Shown here one piece after another: positions 6,868 to 18,326 of a stretch of DNA of 64,000 nucleotides. Position 1 is the first letter of the stretch. Each line of letters begins with the position of its first letter. Under the pieces are notes generated by a model that had not been told where the DNA came from, ran no database searches, and saw nothing but the letters and a program-made list of their open reading frames with translations. Source of the stretch: Lachnospiraceae bacterium (GTDB taxonomy: Bacteria; Bacillota; Clostridia; Lachnospirales; Lachnospiraceae); assembly GCA_017509985.1 (NCBI GenBank), contig JAFWOE010000023.1, forward strand, positions 1 to 64,000, read 5' to 3'. The position numbers were made by a program, and so were the translations under genes.

Positions 6868-8649
6868 ATGAAAGAAAAGAAAAAGAGTGATCTGGCAGTG
6901 CTGCTTGGATATGCAGGAAGCTATAAATGTCTGACATTTTTGGGACTTGGTTTATCTGCGGTAGCCATGGTATTTGGGATGCTCCCGTATATCTGCATCT
7001 GGCTGGTGGCACGGGACCTGATTGCAGTGGCGCCGAACTGGACTGCAGCTGCGGGGATCGCCCGCTACGGCTGGATGGCGTTTGGTTTTGCCGTAGCCGG
7101 GATTGCAGTCTATTTCGCGGCGCTGATGTGCACACATCTGGCTGCGTTTCGTACAGCTTCCAATATCCGTAAAACCGGCATGGCCCATCTGATGAAGACG
7201 CCGCTGGGCTTTTTCGATTCCAATGCTTCCGGCCTGCTGCGCAACCGTCTGGACGGGGCGGCCTCAGAGACGGAAACGCTGCTGGCGCACAATCTGGCGG
7301 ATATTGTGGGTACTGCGGCTATGTTTATTGCCATGCTGGTGCTGATGTTCATTTTTGACTGGCGGATGGGAGCTGCTTGCCTGCTGGCTGCAGTAATATC
7401 CATCGTTTCCATGTTCGCCATGATGGGAGGAAAGAATGCAAAGCTCATGAAGGAGTATCAGGCTGCTCAGGATGTGATGAGCAAAGCCGGGACAGAATAT
7501 GTCCGCGGCATTCCCGTTGTCAAGGTATTTCAGCAGACAGTCTATTCATTTAGGGCGTTTAAAGAGGCTATTGAGGATTACAGCACCAAAGCGGAACGAT
7601 ATACAGATGGCGTCTGCCGTGTTCCTCAGTCTGTGAATCTGACATTTACCGAAGGTGCCTTTATCTTTCTTGTTCCTTTGGCACTCCTCCTGGCACCGGC
7701 AGCACTTACTTCCGGCAGTTTTGCAGGCTTTGTAACAAATTTTGCTTTTTATGCCGTGTTCTCGGCCATCATATCCACAGCCTTGGCGAAGATTATGTTT
7801 GCGGCCAGCGGAATGATGCTTGCCGGCTCGGCTCTGGGAAGAATTAATGAGGTCATGAGTGCTCCTGTGTTGAAAATCATGGATCATCCGCAGGTCCCGC
7901 AAGACAACAGCGTGGAATTCAGGGATGTCTGCTTTACTTATGACGGAGCGGAAGTTCCCGCGCTTGATCATGTGTCATTTCTGGTGAAGCCCGGACAGAC
8001 CGTAGCCCTGGTCGGACCTTCCGGCGGAGGCAAAACAACGGCAGCCTGCCTGATCCCGCGCTTCTGGGATGTCAGTTCCGGCAAGGTCCTTGTCGGCGGT
8101 GTCGATGTCAGGGATGCCGATCCTCATGTGCTGATGGACCAGGTAGCTTTTGTCTTCCATAATAACAGGTTGTTTAAGACCAGCATTTTGGAGAATGTTA
8201 GAGCCTCCCGCCCTGAAGCAACACGGGAGGAGGTGAGGGCAGCACTCTCTGCAGCGCAGTGTGATGATATTCTTGAAAAGCTGCCGGACGGCATGGATAC
8301 GGTCATCGGAACGGAAGGCACTTATCTTTCCGGCGGCGAGCAGAAGCGAGTATCTCTTGCAAGAGCCATCCTGAAAGATGCACCGATCGTTGTACTGGAT
8401 GAGGCTACTGCGTTTGCTGATCCCGAAAATGAGGCAATGATTCAGAAAGCTTTTGCGGCGCTGACAAAAGAACGCACCGTGATCATGATCGCACATCGCC
8501 TGTCAACAGTCATCGGCGCGGATAAGATCATCGTACTGGATAACGGAAAAGTGGCGGAAGAGGGGACTCATACGCAGCTTTCCGCAGGAGGCGGTCTTTA
8601 CGCAAAAATGTGGGCCGATTACAACCAGGCTTTGAAATGGCGCATATAG
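6868..8649 (+). CDS. ABC half transporter (permease-ATPase fusion), first of a pair
   Basis: A 593-residue type IV (exporter-fold) ABC half transporter. Residues 1-325 form a six-helix transmembrane domain and 345-590 the nucleotide-binding domain. Visible motifs are Walker A GPSGGGKTT, signature LSGGEQKRVSLARA, Walker B IVVLDEATAF and the H-loop IAHRLST. It starts at an ATG behind AAGGCGGTGG. The next gene, 13 bases later, encodes a second half transporter of similar design, so a heterodimer is likely. Exporter-fold pairs of this kind include multidrug exporters and the IrtAB-like siderophore importers. The S component upstream makes uptake possible, but direction cannot be decided from sequence. 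Confidence 0.88.
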   Translation: MKEKKKSDLAVLLGYAGSYKCLTFLGLGLSAVAMVFGMLPYICIWLVARDLIAVAPNWTAAAGIARYGWMAFGFAVAGIAVYFAALMCTHLAAFRTASNIRKTGMAHLMKTPLGFFDSNASGLLRNRLDGAASETETLLAHNLADIVGTAAMFIAMLVLMFIFDWRMGAACLLAAVISIVSMFAMMGGKNAKLMKEYQAAQDVMSKAGTEYVRGIPVVKVFQQTVYSFRAFKEAIEDYSTKAERYTDGVCRVPQSVNLTFTEGAFIFLVPLALLLAPAALTSGSFAGFVTNFAFYAVFSAIISTALAKIMFAASGMMLAGSALGRINEVMSAPVLKIMDHPQVPQDNSVEFRDVCFTYDGAEVPALDHVSFLVKPGQTVALVGPSGGGKTTAACLIPRFWDVSSGKVLVGGVDVRDADPHVLMDQVAFVFHNNRLFKTSILENVRASRPEATREEVRAALSAAQCDDILEKLPDGMDTVIGTEGTYLSGGEQKRVSLARAILKDAPIVVLDEATAFADPENEAMIQKAFAALTKERTVIMIAHRLSTVIGADKIIVLDNGKVAEEGTHTQLSAGGGLYAKMWADYNQALKWRI

Positions 8650-8662
8650 GGGGGTGAAGTAT

Positions 8663-10405
8663 ATGTTCGGAAAAGATTTTCAGAGAAAATATGCTCTTAC
8701 CGATCAGGGCATCAGAAACACAAAACAAGGCACTTTCTGGACGGTCATCGTAAACCTCATCGTGATGGGCGGCATGGGGATCCTGTACCTGATGATGTCC
8801 AGGTATATGGCCGTCCTGACCGATGGAGCAGGACTGCCGAAAGCAGTCACTTTCATCCTTCTGGTGCTGGTTTTCCTGGTGTTATCGATTATAACGCATC
8901 TACAGCAGTACCGTACAACATACGGCCTGGTCTACGGTGAGGTCAAAGAAGTCCGTATCGGATTGGCCGAGCGTCTCCGGAAGCTGCCCCTTGGCTACTT
9001 CGGCAAGCGTGACCTGGCTGACCTTACGGAGACGATCATGGGCGACGTGAACCGTCTGGAGCATGTCTGGTCCCATTGCCTGGGATATCTTTATGGTTCC
9101 TATATCTCAACGGCGATCATAGCAGTTGGTATGCTTATCATAAACTTTCAGATGGCACTTGCCTGCCTGTGGGGCGTCCCGGTGGCTTTTGCCCTCCTTT
9201 TCGGAAGCAGAAAGCTGGCAAAGAAGAATTCCGAGATCACGAAAGCTGCAGGCATCCAGGTGTCTGACGGCATTCAGGAGACTTTGGAGAATATCCGGGA
9301 GATCCGGGCTGCAAATCAGGAAGAACGATTCCTGGATGACCTGAACGTCAGGATCGATCATCATGAAAAAACTATGATCAAAGGGGAGCTGTCTACCGGT
9401 ATCTTCGTCAATGCGGCCAGCGTGATCATGCGGCTGGGAGTGGCAACGACCATCCTCACCGGAACAAGTCTGATCCTGTCAGGCAGGATCGACTTTATGC
9501 TCCTGTTCATGTTCCTGCTGGTGATCACACGTGTCTATGCACCATTCGACCAGGCGCTGGCGCTGATTGCGGAGATGTTCATGTCTCAGGTCTCAGCGAG
9601 CAGGCTGATGGAGATCTTCGATGCGAAAAAGGCTGAAGGTGCTGACCATTTTGCTCCTTCCGGACATGATATCGTCTTTGAGAATGTCGAATTTGCATAT
9701 GATAATGAGCAAGTGCTTCGCGGAGTAAGCTTTACCGCAAAAGAGGGTGAAGTGACAGCCCTTGTAGGACCTTCAGGATCAGGAAAGAGTACCTGCGCAA
9801 GGCTTGCTGCCCGGCTCTGGGATATCGATAAGGGCACGATCCGCATCGGCGGGGTGGATAGCGCTTCCATTGATCCGGAGGTTTTGCTTACCGATTATTC
9901 CATGGTATTCCAGAATGTGGTGTTGTTTGACGATACGGTAATGGAGAATATACGTCTGGGGAAGCACGGAGCATCCGATGAAGAGGTTCTGGAAGCCGCC
10001 AGTGCAGCGAACTGTGACGAATTCGTCAGCAAGCTGCCGCAAGGCTATGCAACGCCTATCGGTGAAAACGGGGCAAAGCTTTCGGGCGGCGAACGTCAGC
10101 GTATCTCCATTGCCCGTGCTCTGCTGAAAGATGCACCGATCGTGCTTCTGGATGAAGCAACGGCATCTCTGGATGTTGAAAATGAAACCAAAGTACAGGG
10201 AGCTCTTTCCCGCCTGCTTTCCGGTAAAACGGTACTGGTCATCGCTCATCGGATGCGTACAGTAGAGGCTGCGGATAAGATCGTTGTTCTTGCAGACGGC
10301 AAGGTGGCAGAAGAAGGAAGTCCGAAAGAGCTGTTAAGCAATCCGGAAAGCATCTTCAGGCGTATGACGCAGCTGCAAAATGCCAGTGCCGGATGGAGCA
10401 TTTGA
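8663..10405 (+). CDS. ABC half transporter (permease-ATPase fusion), second of the pair
   Basis: A 580-residue half transporter with an N-terminal six-helix domain and a C-terminal ATPase. Motifs are GPSGSGKST (Walker A), LSGGERQRISIARA (signature), IVLLDEATASLD (Walker B) and IAHRMRT (H-loop). The ATG at 8663 is preferred over an in-frame GTG at 8654, because the GGGGGTG ribosome binding site would overlap that GTG. It follows its partner with 13 bases between stop and start, so the two should be made in equal amounts. Both signature motifs are intact, unlike the degenerate site of many heterodimeric exporters. Confidence 0.88.
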   Translation: MFGKDFQRKYALTDQGIRNTKQGTFWTVIVNLIVMGGMGILYLMMSRYMAVLTDGAGLPKAVTFILLVLVFLVLSIITHLQQYRTTYGLVYGEVKEVRIGLAERLRKLPLGYFGKRDLADLTETIMGDVNRLEHVWSHCLGYLYGSYISTAIIAVGMLIINFQMALACLWGVPVAFALLFGSRKLAKKNSEITKAAGIQVSDGIQETLENIREIRAANQEERFLDDLNVRIDHHEKTMIKGELSTGIFVNAASVIMRLGVATTILTGTSLILSGRIDFMLLFMFLLVITRVYAPFDQALALIAEMFMSQVSASRLMEIFDAKKAEGADHFAPSGHDIVFENVEFAYDNEQVLRGVSFTAKEGEVTALVGPSGSGKSTCARLAARLWDIDKGTIRIGGVDSASIDPEVLLTDYSMVFQNVVLFDDTVMENIRLGKHGASDEEVLEAASAANCDEFVSKLPQGYATPIGENGAKLSGGERQRISIARALLKDAPIVLLDEATASLDVENETKVQGALSRLLSGKTVLVIAHRMRTVEAADKIVVLADGKVAEEGSPKELLSNPESIFRRMTQLQNASAGWSI

Positions 10406-11873: not shown

Positions 11874-13787
11874 TCAGCCAAGAGGGATCTCCACGACCTC
11901 TGCCATTTTGGTCAGGCACATCTCGATCTGGTTCGAGATGTCCTCGACCAGTTTTTTTGTAATATCTTCATTTTTTTCCTGCTCCAGCTTTTCGTATAAA
12001 CTGTCTTTAACCTCTTCGCTGATGCGGCCGACTCTGGAACGGAGATAACTCTTGGGCATCAGTCTGCGCATGGGCTTCGGTATGTTCATTTTGAGGAAGG
12101 CATTCTGCATGGGTTCTTTGCCGAGGGCAAGAATCAGTGCAGATATTACAAAGCCGATCAGGATCCCCTGTATACCGCTTGCTACAAGCGCCAGTCCCCC
12201 GCCTCCGCACAGCAGTCCCACGATGACGGAAACAATAGCGTCGATCAGCCAGGTGATCTCGTTGATCGCGAAGAGATCCTTCGCGTCTACATGGATATTG
12301 ATATCGGAAAGGGAAAGATAGGATGTCAGATCCAGCGCCGTGAAGGGTACATTGTGACGGACGCAGATCGGCATGGTGTATTCCTCAAGTCCGTAGGAAA
12401 CCTTTTTCAGCCAGGAGGCTACCGTTTTTGCCAGAAGTTCCCTGCCTTCATCCGAATGCAGATATGCATCGATATCCTGCTCGAGGATGGCGTCGATATC
12501 ACCAAGATGTTCGATCGAGCCGTCTCTCCACCGGTCGATGACCGGGATGGCGACCTTTTCCAGGATGGGGTCTACGATGTTGTCCACTGTTTTCCGGTAC
12601 AGTTCATCAATGTTTTTTTCGACGATCTCTTCGATCACCGTCGATTCGATCAGGGCGGAGATCTCCGCTTTGAAAGCGCGCAGTTCCTCGTCGATCAGGC
12701 CGCACTGCGCAAGGCCCTTGGCAACGGAAAATTCCGGTTCGCTGCCGCAGATGACAACAGCTTCGGGAAAAACTTCCCGGCACCAGTTTCTGAGTTCCTG
12801 CATTCTGGATACGCCGCCGGTCATGAAGATCAGTTCCGGCTGAAGTTCCGTTATGCTTTCACGCACCTGCTTAAGACTGTCGGTAAATACTTTGCGGAAA
12901 GACTGTCCGTCCAGACGGCTGACCTTTTTGTTTAAGAGTCTGTCCGCGATCTCCGGATTCATCGTCAACTTCAGCCGGACCGGGATAAGCTGTGTGCGGA
13001 TATTGATCGTCTGGGTCAGCGGTTCATTCTGCCAGAATTCGATGTCGGAATAATATTTCTCTTTCAGGCGGCGCGCGGCGAACTCGCAGTAGGTACGCCA
13101 GGCTTCATTTTCCGTGAATATCTTCCGAATCTTTGCCGGATCCGGAGAGGCATCGATGGCCTCCTCCAGCAGGATCTCGTCCATGACACCGCCGCCTAAA
13201 GCCACTTCTCCGCCGGTCTTCAGTTCTACCTCTTTGCCGCTCATAATATAGGCGAAATCTGTCGTGGAAGACCCGATGTCAACGACCAGGACCGGTTTGG
13301 AAAGGATATCATAACCGACCTGCAGATGCTTTGACCGGCAGGCACTGATCAGAGCGGCTCTGGATTCGGACACGATCTTCAGCGGGGGATAGCCGGCGCT
13401 CTCAAACAGGCCTCTGTATTCCTCGCGGTCGGCTTTATTCCATCCGGCCGGACAGCCGATGTAAAAGCACTGATCATCACCTCGGACAAGATCTCCGGAC
13501 AGGAGCAGCTCGCCGAGCACTCCTGCCGCAAAACTTTTTAAATCATTTTTTGCGCTGTTGTCCGTCAGAAACCGGCTTTTGAATCGAAGCTTCCGGACCA
13601 GCACATCCGGCTCATAGCAGGCGCCTTCTCCGATCAGCAGCTGGCCGTCCCGCTTCATTGCGTATGCGGTGATGAAGCTGCCGGCTTCCTGCACCGGTAT
13701 TACCTGAGGGTTTTCCCCTTCTTTTTTTATGATCCGGGTAACAGCGCTTTCCGCGTCGCCCAGGTCAAATCCGTAAAAGCGTTCCAT
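11874..13787 (-). CDS. membrane-anchored Hsp70/actin-fold ATPase
   Basis: A 637-residue protein whose first 365 residues are an Hsp70-type nucleotide-binding domain. Phosphate 1 is YGFDLGDAESAV (5-16), phosphate 2 is VLVVDIGSSTTDFAYI (166-181), and the adenosine motif is LIFMTGGVSRMQELRNW (319-335). The usual DnaK substrate-binding domain is absent. Instead there is a helical region (366-505), a glycine-rich hydrophobic segment (511-555, containing GLLCGGGGLALVASGI) and a basic, helical C-terminal tail. It is therefore likely tethered to, or inserted in, the cytoplasmic membrane. It follows its membrane partner by three bases in one operon. Function unknown; clients may be membrane-associated. 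Confidence 0.8.
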   Translation of the reverse strand: MERFYGFDLGDAESAVTRIIKKEGENPQVIPVQEAGSFITAYAMKRDGQLLIGEGACYEPDVLVRKLRFKSRFLTDNSAKNDLKSFAAGVLGELLLSGDLVRGDDQCFYIGCPAGWNKADREEYRGLFESAGYPPLKIVSESRAALISACRSKHLQVGYDILSKPVLVVDIGSSTTDFAYIMSGKEVELKTGGEVALGGGVMDEILLEEAIDASPDPAKIRKIFTENEAWRTYCEFAARRLKEKYYSDIEFWQNEPLTQTINIRTQLIPVRLKLTMNPEIADRLLNKKVSRLDGQSFRKVFTDSLKQVRESITELQPELIFMTGGVSRMQELRNWCREVFPEAVVICGSEPEFSVAKGLAQCGLIDEELRAFKAEISALIESTVIEEIVEKNIDELYRKTVDNIVDPILEKVAIPVIDRWRDGSIEHLGDIDAILEQDIDAYLHSDEGRELLAKTVASWLKKVSYGLEEYTMPICVRHNVPFTALDLTSYLSLSDINIHVDAKDLFAINEITWLIDAIVSVIVGLLCGGGGLALVASGIQGILIGFVISALILALGKEPMQNAFLKMNIPKPMRRLMPKSYLRSRVGRISEEVKDSLYEKLEQEKNEDITKKLVEDISNQIEMCLTKMAEVVEIPLG

Positions 13788-13790
13788 ATA

Positions 13791-14735
13791 TCATCCTTTT
13801 CCGGCAGAAGCCATGCCTTTCTTCAAAAGCTCTCCGTCCGCGGCGATCGCGGGACGTATCGTTCCCCCTGTGTAAGCCGGTATCATGTCGAACCATCCGC
13901 TGCCCTGTGTGATCGCGCCTTCCGCATCGGCCTTTCCTGCGTCTGCACTCCAGTCTACGACATCGATGTTTTTCTTATGCAGATAGAATTTGATCTGCGA
14001 GATCTCCTCGTCTGCCTGCTCATCTCTGCCTTTCCGGCCGTATGCGTCTTCCAGCAGCTGGGACAGAAGATCCAGTTCTGCCGGGTCTAAGCCGGCTCCC
14101 CGGTCTTTCAAACGCTCCCTCTCTTCCTGCCTGACGGAGTTCCGGACATCTTCCAGCTGCTTGTCGATAACCAGGATCACGGCAAGAAGATGATTGTATA
14201 TTTTGGAAGTATCCATCGTCGTTTCGGCATGCAGCGTCTCTTTTGAGGTCTCTTTTCTGCGTCGAAACAGCGTTCCGGCAAAGAAAAACAGAAGAACGGT
14301 CAGCAGCGGCACCAGCGCAAGGACATAGCGCGGCGGCAGTCCGGCAGACTGCCAGTCTGCCGACCCGGCGGCCGCGGAGGAGGCGATCAGCTGTGCGCCG
14401 ATCACCGTGGCAGCGGCACCGATCAGCCCGAGGATCAGAAGCAGGAGAAATCCCTTCGATACCTTCTGTTTGCCGGAGCCCGGTTTGCTGTAATCCGTCC
14501 GTCCATAGACTTTCGTTTCTCCGTCACTGTCGACCAGGGAGCAGGCCGCTTTTGCAACCTGTATCATCGAACCGGCGGCCTCCCGGACTCTGGCGTTTTC
14601 TTCCTGATCGTTAAATGTATAAAGTATACGGTCCAGTTCAGAATTCAGCGCGCGGGTCGCCGCAACGGCAGCTGTGCCGCTGATGGCGGACAGCAGGTGC
14701 TCTCTGTTCTGTTCAAAAATAGTCTGAAGTGTCAT
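13791..14735 (-). CDS. two-helix membrane partner of the Hsp70-like ATPase
   Basis: A 314-residue protein of no family I can name. The start is the ATG at 14735, six bases from GGAGGA; an in-frame extension upstream lacks such a site. Residues 1-70 are helical. Membrane helices lie at about 94-122 and 136-157, separated by a short extracytoplasmic loop and followed by FRRRKE. The C-terminal half (176-260) is a charged, coiled-coil-like region. The end, GTIRPAIAADGELLKKG, recalls the RPAxV strand at the end of GrpE, the DnaK nucleotide exchange factor. Its placement directly before the Hsp70-like gene makes a cofactor role reasonable, but this is inference. Confidence 0.6.
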   Translation of the reverse strand: MTLQTIFEQNREHLLSAISGTAAVAATRALNSELDRILYTFNDQEENARVREAAGSMIQVAKAACSLVDSDGETKVYGRTDYSKPGSGKQKVSKGFLLLLILGLIGAAATVIGAQLIASSAAAGSADWQSAGLPPRYVLALVPLLTVLLFFFAGTLFRRRKETSKETLHAETTMDTSKIYNHLLAVILVIDKQLEDVRNSVRQEERERLKDRGAGLDPAELDLLSQLLEDAYGRKGRDEQADEEISQIKFYLHKKNIDVVDWSADAGKADAEGAITQGSGWFDMIPAYTGGTIRPAIAADGELLKKGMASAGKG

Positions 14736-14899
14736 AAAAATCCTCCAATGGGAAGAATACAATTTTTCATTTTCATGATATCATATCTGGAAGGAAAACA
14801 ACAGCCGGAACGAAAGACCGGTCTGCGGGAAAGCAGTACTGTGTTTTTCAGGGAAAGAAAACGGGCTGGGCACAGTCCCGCAATGCGAGGGAAGAATAA

Positions 14900-15721
14900 A
14901 TGGATCAGCAGGAACGCCTGGACTACCTGGTTGAACGGTTCAAGGAGGACTCCGGGGATTATAAGGATCTGAAAACACCATCCGACAAAGAAGGGAAGGA
15001 ACGCATCCTCCGGTCTCTGATGAATATCCGTATGCCGAAAAGAATGGCGGCTTCCGTTCTCGCCGTGCAGGACGAATACCTGCAGGAGCGCAGCCGTGAA
15101 AACGGGATCGTATCTGCAGCTGAGATACCGACGATCGCCTCCCGGGACAGCAGCCATGCTTTTGCAGAGCAGCTTTCCGTCTGGCAGGGAGATATCACAA
15201 GGCTTGCTGTTGATGCCATCGTAAACGCGGCCAATTCGCAGATGCTGGGCTGTTTCATCCCGATGCATACCTGTATCGATAACTGCATCCATACTTTTGC
15301 GGGGATCCAGCTGCGGGCAGAGTGCAGCCGTCAGATGGAACGGCTTCGCGCAAAGTACGGCAGCGGTTACGAACAGCCGACGGCAGTGCCGATGCTGACA
15401 CCCGGATACAATCTTCCGGCAAAACATGTGGTCCATATCGTAGGGCCGATCGTACAGTATCAGCTCACACCGGAACTGGAGGAAGAGCTGGCTGCCTGCT
15501 ACAGCAGTACGCTGGATCTCTGCGAAAAGAAGAACATCCGGACCGTGGCTTTCTGCTGTATTTCCACCGGGGTATTCCGCTTTCCGAACAGAAGGGCGGC
15601 AGAGATCGCCGTAAAGACCGTAACAGACTGGCTTGGCAGACATACGGGCCGGATGGAGAGGGTGATATTCAATGTTTTTAAAGATGAGGACAGAAAATAT
15701 TATGAAGCAGAATTATTCTGA
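14900..15721 (+). CDS. zinc-dependent macrodomain ADP-ribosyl hydrolase
   Basis: A 273-residue protein with an N-terminal helical extension and a macrodomain from about residue 90. WQGDITRLAVDAIVNAANSQ (95-114) is the ADP-ribose binding core. The loop with Cys118, His123 and Cys125 in GCFIPMHTCIDNCIH carries the zinc-ligand pattern of the Zn-macro class found with class M sirtuins in Staphylococcus and Streptococcus. Those enzymes remove ADP-ribose from proteins. CCISTGVFRFPNRRAAEIA is the usual C-terminal substrate loop. The gene overlaps the sirtuin gene that follows, so the writer/eraser pair is translationally coupled. Confidence 0.88.
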   Translation: MDQQERLDYLVERFKEDSGDYKDLKTPSDKEGKERILRSLMNIRMPKRMAASVLAVQDEYLQERSRENGIVSAAEIPTIASRDSSHAFAEQLSVWQGDITRLAVDAIVNAANSQMLGCFIPMHTCIDNCIHTFAGIQLRAECSRQMERLRAKYGSGYEQPTAVPMLTPGYNLPAKHVVHIVGPIVQYQLTPELEEELAACYSSTLDLCEKKNIRTVAFCCISTGVFRFPNRRAAEIAVKTVTDWLGRHTGRMERVIFNVFKDEDRKYYEAELF

Positions 15722-16691
15722 ACTGCCAAACGGGTATCTCGAGACCATACAGAGAGGGATCGCCGGCGTCCGGAATTTCCGTGCCGGTATCTCCCGCGGA
15801 ACCGGCAGCCGGCAGGAAAATACAGAACGGCTGAAGAAAGAACTCACGACCGCCGGTGCTGTCGTGATCGGTGCCGGCGCGGGCCTGTCCACGGCAGCCG
15901 GTTTTACTTACAGCGGGGAACGATTCGAAAAGTATTTCGGGGACTTTGAGAAGAAATACGGCATCCGGGATATGTACTCCGGCGGTTTCTATCCATTTCC
16001 GGATGAGGAGACCCGCTGGGCCTGGTGGGCAAGGCATATTTACTGTAATCGTTATGTGGACGCTCCGAAACCGGTCTACCGGGATCTGCTGAAGCTGGTA
16101 CAGGACAGGGATTATTTCGTGATCACGACGAACGTGGATCATCAGTTCCAGACAGCCGGATTCGACAAAAAAAGACTCTTCTACACGCAGGGTGATTACG
16201 GCCTGTTCCAGAGCGTGGATGCACAGAACCGGAAAACCTACGATAACGAAGCGTGGACCATGGAAGCAATGGACGCCCAGGGCTTTGTAAGAGATACGGA
16301 CAATGTGTTTCAGCCGCCGGCAGACGGTGCCCTCCGGATGCAGATCCCGACCGAGCTGATCCCCAGATGTCCGGATGACGGATCCGATGTGACCATGAAC
16401 CTTCGTGCCGATGACAGCTTTGTCGAAGATGAAGGCTGGCATAAAGCCTCGGCAGCCTATCTGGATTTCCTGAACAGACATGAAGGCATGCATGTGCTTT
16501 TTCTGGAGATCGGCGTCGGTGCCAATACCCCGGTGATCATCAAGTATCCCTTCTGGCAGATGACGGACGAAAACGAAAAGGCAGTCTATGCCTGCCTGAA
16601 TTACGACGAAGCCTGCTGCCCCCTTCAGATCAAGAAGCGGTCCATCTGTATCGGCGGCGACAGCGGCGAAGTGATAAAGCAGCTTTTGTAA
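15672..16691 (+). CDS. class M sirtuin (SirTM), protein ADP-ribosyltransferase
   Basis: A Sir2-fold protein of the SirTM class, up to 339 residues. The NAD-binding signature is VVIGAGAGLSTAAGFTYSG and the central motif is VITTNVDHQFQTAGF. It lacks the deacetylase-type HG motif. Known SirTM proteins ADP-ribosylate lipoylated GcvH-L and are opposed by the Zn-macrodomain encoded next door. Three in-frame starts exist (15672, 15684, 15702). The first has the better spaced GAGG and overlaps the macrodomain gene by 50 bases; the last would give a shorter N-terminus. No gcvH-L or lipoate ligase gene lies in this window, which is unusual for the pair. Confidence 0.85.
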   Translation: MFLKMRTENIMKQNYSELPNGYLETIQRGIAGVRNFRAGISRGTGSRQENTERLKKELTTAGAVVIGAGAGLSTAAGFTYSGERFEKYFGDFEKKYGIRDMYSGGFYPFPDEETRWAWWARHIYCNRYVDAPKPVYRDLLKLVQDRDYFVITTNVDHQFQTAGFDKKRLFYTQGDYGLFQSVDAQNRKTYDNEAWTMEAMDAQGFVRDTDNVFQPPADGALRMQIPTELIPRCPDDGSDVTMNLRADDSFVEDEGWHKASAAYLDFLNRHEGMHVLFLEIGVGANTPVIIKYPFWQMTDENEKAVYACLNYDEACCPLQIKKRSICIGGDSGEVIKQLL

Positions 16692-17501: not shown

Positions 17502-18326
17502 TCATATCTTGATCTGCAGCGGGCAGTCCGAAAGAACAACATGTTCTGCCAGCCGGTTCAGGGACAGATCCCGCAGATAATCCTGGAGAATGGACGGGGA
17601 TTGTGTGGATTCGGGACCGATGATGATCTCGGAGATCAGATCCTCTATCGTGTACCCCGCACGGCTGCACATTTCTTCCAGATTCAGCGGGTAGTATTTT
17701 TTGATCCTTTCCTTCGCAACATGATAACGGGGCTTCACATCGAAATCCTCCGCATTAAAGGGCATGACTACCAGCCGGATCTCGTTCTCGCTGGAAAAAG
17801 ACGGATGTTTGAAAGATGCGGAATTCTGCCAGGCCTCCCGCAGCTTTTCCCAGAGTACGGGGTTGTATTCGGAAAGATCACTGTCGCGGATCAGGTCATG
17901 GATCTCATTGACCAGCGGATGCGATGCCACATCGTCCTGATAAAACACTTTTTTCAAAGAGATCGCACCGCCCGTAAGTTCCTCCAGGATCTCAAGCCGG
18001 AACGCCAGACAGACGCCTTTTCCGCGGTATGCGTACCGCTCCCACTGGGCCGCGTCGTCCCGGAAAGTCGAAAAGCAGGCGGCGTAGGCCGAATACTCAA
18101 AACGCTTTCTGCTCAGCTCTTCATACTTCGTCTGCAGCCGGAGCGCTTTTTCGGTCTCTCCCTCGTCTACGAGACGCTGCCATATGGCCGTGAATACGCC
18201 ACGCAGGAACAGCTGCATCTCTTCCGCGTCGTTCATGTTCAGAACATTGTTGACCCGGAGTTCCTTCTCGCACAGGATGCCGTTCAGTGCGTAAAAATCG
18301 GTATAATGATATAAGATCCTGCTCAT
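17502..18326 (-). CDS. DUF2971 protein
   Basis: A 274-residue soluble protein of the DUF2971 family. Features seen are the N-terminal LYHYTDFYALNGIL, the central ACFSTFRDDAAQWERYA followed by GKGVCLAF, and SSENEIRLVV further on. The order of a His-Tyr near the N-terminus, a GKGV strand and a late Glu superficially resembles ADP-ribosyltransferase-like folds, but I cannot confirm this. It starts at an ATG behind AAGGAG and follows the NUDIX gene by 11 bases, so the two are one minus-strand operon. Function unknown. Confidence 0.7.
   Translation of the reverse strand: MSRILYHYTDFYALNGILCEKELRVNNVLNMNDAEEMQLFLRGVFTAIWQRLVDEGETEKALRLQTKYEELSRKRFEYSAYAACFSTFRDDAAQWERYAYRGKGVCLAFRLEILEELTGGAISLKKVFYQDDVASHPLVNEIHDLIRDSDLSEYNPVLWEKLREAWQNSASFKHPSFSSENEIRLVVMPFNAEDFDVKPRYHVAKERIKKYYPLNLEEMCSRAGYTIEDLISEIIIGPESTQSPSILQDYLRDLSLNRLAEHVVLSDCPLQIKI

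Follow-up and report, generated by a model that had tools for sequence, protein, structure and literature searches.

The window (the whole 64,000-nucleotide stretch of DNA analysed here) carries two closely spaced genes on the minus strand, of which the downstream member, gene A (11874..13787, from the ATG at 13787 to the TGA at 11874), encodes a predicted membrane Hsp70-type ATPase of 637 aa, and the upstream member, gene B (13791..14735), a two-helix membrane partner of 314 aa when read from the ATG at 14735. The TGA stop of gene B (13791–13793) is separated from gene A by an intergenic spacer of three bases (13788–13790), as the initial annotation of this DNA had claimed. The longest open reading frame of gene B begins at a TTG at 14762 and gives 323 aa, and this frame is used to number its residues below; the ATG at 14735, which is exactly the end coordinate given in that annotation, is the likely start, with a GGAGG ribosome-binding site in front of it (14742..14746, minus strand; TTGGAGGATTTTTATG).

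The pair lies between a MATE transporter gene (plus strand) on one side and a divergent macrodomain gene (start at 14900) on the other. Two ABC exporter half-transporter genes precede the MATE gene (6868–10405 for all three, plus strand), and the macrodomain gene encodes an ADP-ribose hydrolase of the PRK04143 type, with a divergent sirtuin-like gene immediately behind it (14900–16691 for the two, plus strand). These last two resemble macrodomain–SirTM ADP-ribosylation pairs; they are divergent from B and are not kept beside it elsewhere. A DUF2971 protein encoded further along (17502–18326, minus strand) weakly matches PDC-S31, a PADLOC candidate.

Domain structure of the ATPase

Residues 1–368 of A (12684..13787, minus strand) form an actin/Hsp70 nucleotide-binding domain, recognised by invariant columns, DnaK alignment and structural matches. 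Pfam HSP70 (PF00012) matches residues 110–364, the nucleotide-binding part only, at 34.6 bits against a cut-off of 20.6 and is the sole family above its cut-off for A, and phmmer aligns residues 1–370 with DnaK 4rtf (E=1.5e-8), in agreement with the three Hsp70 nucleotide motifs read from the sequence earlier; with the NCBIfam DnaK and HscA models, A scores far below the cut-offs. Residues D8-L9-G10, E13, K70, E141, D170, T175/T176 and G324-G325 are invariant in this domain (K70 is taken as the catalytic lysine from a DnaK alignment whose register is off by one residue), and the motifs DLG, E141, D170-[IV]-GSSTTD and TGG-V-S are invariant or nearly so, with the phosphate signature reading DLG-[DH]-[AG]-E-[ST] where DnaK has DLGTTNS. 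The AlphaFold2 model of A (pLDDT 80) has a core of actin type by both structural searches, with a Foldseek match to an Hsp70 at E 4e-14 and VIA matches to Hsp70s at Z values of about 29–31 over about 330 residues. The best of these is Ssz1 (Z 31.4, 3.2 Å over 334 residues), tied with other Hsp70s, and DnaK scores about 29–30; by structural alignment the domain is approximately 19% identical to DnaK and about 20% identical to any solved Hsp70.

An all-helical stalk follows (residues 369–500, 12288..12683, minus strand; modelled helices 351–381, 384–421, 428–443 and 446–477) and stands where DnaK has its linker and beta-sandwich substrate-binding domain. Neither was found in A: the Pfam HSP70 match stops at position 374 of the 599 in the profile, and as no beta strands follow residue 347 in the model, the DnaK beta-sandwich is absent. 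The stalk leads into a glycine-rich hydrophobic hairpin at residues of about 504–560 (12108..12278, minus strand), identified from sequence and modelled with a pLDDT of 40–50, and a basic helical tail (residues 561–637, 11877..12107, minus strand) which ends in ...EVVEIPLG. Both the lack of a substrate domain and a glycine-rich membrane segment, then placed at 511–555, had been pointed out in the initial annotation, and the hydrophobic residues in fact extend over 505–560 and are kept in 73/73 of the full-length A-family sequences tested. DnaK-type Hsp70s are soluble proteins, from which A differs by this predicted membrane hairpin. We conclude that A is a member of the Hsp70/actin superfamily which stands outside the DnaK-type family because it has no DnaK substrate-binding domain.

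Protein B and its association with A

The model of B (pLDDT 88) consists of an N-terminal helical domain with a strand at 80–89 (residues 10–99 of the 323-aa frame, 14466..14735, minus strand; pLDDT mostly over 90), a two-helix transmembrane hairpin flanked by two strands (residues 100–168, 14259..14465, minus strand, from model and sequence, with hydrophobic stretches at 100–131 and 140–168), and a C-terminal half in which a long helix is followed by two short ones and a small beta domain (residues 185–323, 13794..14210, minus strand). Positive charges lie on both sides of the hairpin (KQKVSK and FRRRK), as expected if both ends of B are cytosolic. B evolves much faster than A (24–68% versus 54–86% identity), and its five invariant residues are all in the C-terminal part, four of them within the motif FD..P.....TIRPALv.DG.LL.KG (family form F-[DE]-x-x-P...T-I-R-P-A-L-V-x-D-G-x-L-L-x-K-G). 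No fitting family for B was found in Pfam, NCBIfam, PADLOC or PHROG, the scattered profile matches look transmembrane-driven, and B is assigned to no family.

We compared 78 loci from genome contigs, mostly from metagenome-assembled Lachnospiraceae and Erysipelotrichaceae and with a ruminant gut site named as the source in many of the record titles, plus one genus relative (L006). B was found directly upstream of A on the same strand in 73/79 of these loci, with gaps ranging from –4 to 179 bases. Five of the six remaining loci are cut at or near a contig end and were left out, giving 73 of 74 informative loci with B upstream; the only clear orphan among them is L044, in which A has no recognisable B adjoining it. 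(This orphan gene has its own TATAAT-like box and GGAGG site within L044:4500–8000.) A further 397 genomes drawn evenly from the family included ten with A, and B was adjacent in 10/10. There was no convincing case of B without A in this sample, in which five other B matches scored 25–27 bits over the transmembrane stretch of large frames. When we asked whether the two genes occur independently, they were found paired in both sets with a single orphan A, and this pairing is not due to chance.

The near-perfect pairing extends across deep divergence. A conjugative plasmid of Calothrix carries, among integrase genes, an A homologue with 29% identity and a membrane hairpin, and a 268-residue two-helix protein is encoded upstream of it. 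A third version of A occurs in G1001, from another Clostridia family, where the upstream gene encodes a 307-residue membrane protein ending in PAVVKDDSIIVKGRVDKPAK. The A proteins of both also keep FK, E-[SK]-[RK]-AA or ESKAA, and D-[IF]-GSSTTD, and E141, D170 and the GSSTTD and TGG motifs are likewise retained at this distance. Amongst about 750 other proteins, the Calothrix upstream gene was the best non-B match to the B N-terminal soluble profile (E 0.036) and the G1001 upstream gene the best non-B match to the C-terminal soluble profile (E 0.004). The evidence that these are counterparts of B is modest in each case, and both times the candidate has the identical operon position.

The C-terminal half of B can be compared with the Hsp70 exchange factor GrpE, as the elements predicted for B 183–323, a long helix, then two shorter ones and a small beta domain, come in a GrpE-like order. 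VIA aligned this region with GrpE 1dkg_A at Z 7.6 and 6.0 Å over 128 residues, and with 4ani_A (6.9), 9a81_A (6.8), 9bls_B (6.4), 9blt_B (6.3) and 3a6m_A (4.8), all of which are Z values below 8 and within the range seen for unrelated folds; the six entries align to nearly one range of B. VIA also found SynDLP (Z 8.3) and F-BAR helices, which we regard as generic matches between helical proteins, and with Foldseek alone B had no significant match. B differs from GrpE in its membrane hairpin and extra N-terminal domain, its shorter beta domain and the lack of a sequence-profile match. The window B did not match the GrpE models, the 25 families listed for 44 B proteins did not include PF01025 (GrpE), hhalign against 16 GrpE proteins from relatives gave a probability under 1% even with trimmed C-terminal profiles, and our own profile–profile alignment was no better than shuffled; we therefore rejected B as a GrpE by sequence.

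The initial annotation had noted that no DnaJ or GrpE gene lies nearby. This holds by sequence, as GrpE and J-domain protein genes are absent from the window's contig (C16), the only GrpE found in the genome adjoins dnaK on contig C22, and J-domain proteins are encoded solely on C22 and C43; but in predicted fold the C-terminal half of B is GrpE-like, and therefore the missing exchange factor may be B itself. The GrpE-like alignment, which alone is not significant, would fit the genetic pairing with an Hsp70-type ATPase, and we regard the GrpE-like reading of this half as tentative, with the balance tilted against it. The Calothrix partner protein is apparently without the C-terminal beta domain, so B would not serve in exchange everywhere.

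Two further kinds of protein were seen in these searches. Loci L105, L106, L107 and L108, in genomes of the same order, encode large helical proteins of about 280–650 aa with a divergent GrpE head at their end, which may represent a second type of GrpE-tailed protein that has been little studied. An Hsp70 substrate-binding domain that stands alone (220 aa, without an ATPase part) is encoded beside ribosomal protein genes in the genome of the window, G000 (contig C46:62713–63372; L002:1489–2151). We rejected it as a part of the system acting in trans, since its matches in other A-carrying genomes lie in full-length DnaK-sized frames and G535 has no match; judging also by the longer versions in genus relatives, it is probably a truncated second DnaK.

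Distribution and genomic context

A is sparsely distributed, being found in 2/7 sampled genomes of the genus and about 2.5% of the family (10/397 genomes), with one distant homologue in a class sample of 391 genomes and no A besides the window's own in a phylum sample of 398 evenly drawn genomes. The A tree intermixes loci labelled Lachnospiraceae, Oscillospiraceae and Erysipelotrichaceae, and the window A is closer to Erysipelotrichaceae copies (63–68% identity) than to the copy of the genus relative G004 (59%), which suggests a history of horizontal transfer or repeated loss. The G479 copy is decaying through a deletion with a frameshift. We had considered a programmed frameshift between the ATPase and membrane parts, to which G479, L069 and L072 seemed to point, but rejected this as L069 contains assembly Ns and L072 has an in-frame insertion.

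The flanking genes are rarely alike from locus to locus (118 of them fall into 98 families) and no third gene recurs across the 78 loci, and therefore the module consists of two genes only. The macrodomain and sirtuin-like genes were rejected as a part of the system, since they do not recur in the 78 loci and the genus relative G005 has the macrodomain gene without A. A defence-island context was similarly not supported, as the matches to defence models came from single neighbours and were mostly general helicase or nuclease homologues, and a phage origin was rejected, as phage and viral records yielded no relatives.

Interpretation and comparison with known systems

Together, A and B look like a real machine of two proteins in the cell membrane. 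Because A has a helical stalk and hairpin and no peptide clamp, it is most simply read as a switch driven by ATP that would act on the membrane or its proteins. The nucleotide-binding domain of A would lie in the cytosol and act as an ATP/ADP switch, driving the stalk and membrane hairpin instead of a peptide-binding domain, and therefore the probable site of its target is in or at the membrane. As the near-obligate partner, B would be held in the same membrane by its own hairpin, its two soluble domains facing the cytosol, most likely binding A and setting its nucleotide cycle; its GrpE-shaped C-terminal half could be a built-in exchange factor, and a constant partner of this kind would supply both recruitment and control of the cycle. 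For the overall reading of A as an Hsp70-type ATPase switch embedded in the membrane and controlled there by B, we consider the case evenly balanced. The more specific proposal, that this is the first fully membrane-embedded Hsp70/exchange-factor machine, with a GrpE-like membrane-anchored B and no J protein, we find doubtful at present. An earlier suggestion of a self-contained membrane chaperone or actin-like machine with a cofactor is borne out in part, by the actin/Hsp70 core, the hairpin and the co-inherited partner.

A might instead be an actin-like scaffold or filament (like FtsA, PilM or MreB) seated on its own hairpin, with B as a membrane adaptor, the role that PilN has for PilM, and with ATP controlling assembly and not a chaperone cycle. 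The MreB profile matches A at 24.8 bits, below the cut-off of 27, the Calothrix and G1001 A proteins have their best profile matches to ParM, MreB and FtsA, again all below cut-off, and MreB5 is among the Foldseek matches of A (E 2e-12); the coupling of an actin-like ATPase with a partner in the membrane is also known, from PilM/PilN. We nonetheless think a filament unlikely, as Hsp70s fill the VIA matches of A (Z 28–31), only Pfam HSP70 scores above its cut-off (FtsA reaches 12.2 bits versus 31.8), and no division, pilus or cell-shape genes recur beside the pair.

An accessory protection or stress effector, in which the ATPase would sense a trigger such as phage or membrane damage and the glycine-rich hairpin would disturb or seal the membrane, appears less probable still. 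Its patchy distribution, a tree which does not follow species, the decayed G479 copy and the plasmid-borne relative among integrase genes are all traits of an accessory module, but there is no credible PADLOC match (the best for A is an isolated 12-bit match with E 0.019, and there is none for B), many of the genes directly beside the pair serve metabolism, translation or transport, and no relatives were found in phage or viral records. We consider it very unlikely that A is a membrane-localised regulator reduced to a nucleotide-binding domain which competes for or recruits the cell's DnaJ and GrpE, a kind of regulator described for HSPA13, with B only an anchor. The genome does encode standard DnaK, GrpE and DnaJ on C22, but with only about 19% identity to DnaK the conserved J-protein surfaces are unlikely to be retained in A, a B that did no more than anchor A would make one of two hydrophobic hairpins superfluous, and the conserved residues of B sit in its soluble parts.

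The reading of A and B as a membrane-embedded switch and its partner can be set against known Hsp70s. The three prokaryotic types, DnaK, HscA and HscC, all have a substrate-binding domain, and HscC probably acts at the plasma membrane with the tail-anchored J proteins DjlB and DjlC (PMC8215388). A shares with them the fold and motifs of the nucleotide-binding domain, but they have the linker and beta-sandwich and are not membrane proteins themselves, whereas in A these are replaced by an all-helical stalk and a membrane hairpin, and no J protein is encoded close by. HSPA13/STCH is a metazoan Hsp70 of the ER consisting only of a nucleotide-binding domain, 39% identical to that of BiP, and indicates that an Hsp70 of this kind can have a function (PMC9691929). 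Neither publication (PMC8215388, PMC9691929) ascribes to its Hsp70s a hairpin integral to the membrane together with a membrane partner inherited alongside, and we found no description of a membrane-anchored bacterial Hsp70 with such a partner in the open-access literature. A resembles HSPA13 in having an Hsp70 core without a substrate-binding domain and, by prediction, a function at a membrane compartment, but HSPA13 is eukaryotic and located in the ER, and its 39% identity to BiP compares with about 20% between A and any solved Hsp70. We know of no obligate two-helix partner gene for HSPA13.

Ssz1 of the ribosome-associated complex (5mb9, 4gni), the best structural match of the core, is an Hsp70 in a fixed complex with one partner, as we propose for A and B, but it is soluble and ribosome-bound, keeps its substrate-binding beta domain, and has a J protein as its partner. 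PilM–PilN and FtsA are likewise actin-fold ATPases coupled to a membrane protein, as A would be to B. PilM and FtsA reach the membrane through a partner or an amphipathic helix and not by an internal hairpin such as that of A, and pilus or division genes do not recur near the A/B pair. The module is small, with two genes, and testable in the laboratory; if our reading is true, it would widen the use of the Hsp70 switch, known for gripping peptides, to action on the membrane, and A would be a natural bridge between chaperone-type uses of the actin fold and those of the cytoskeleton type.
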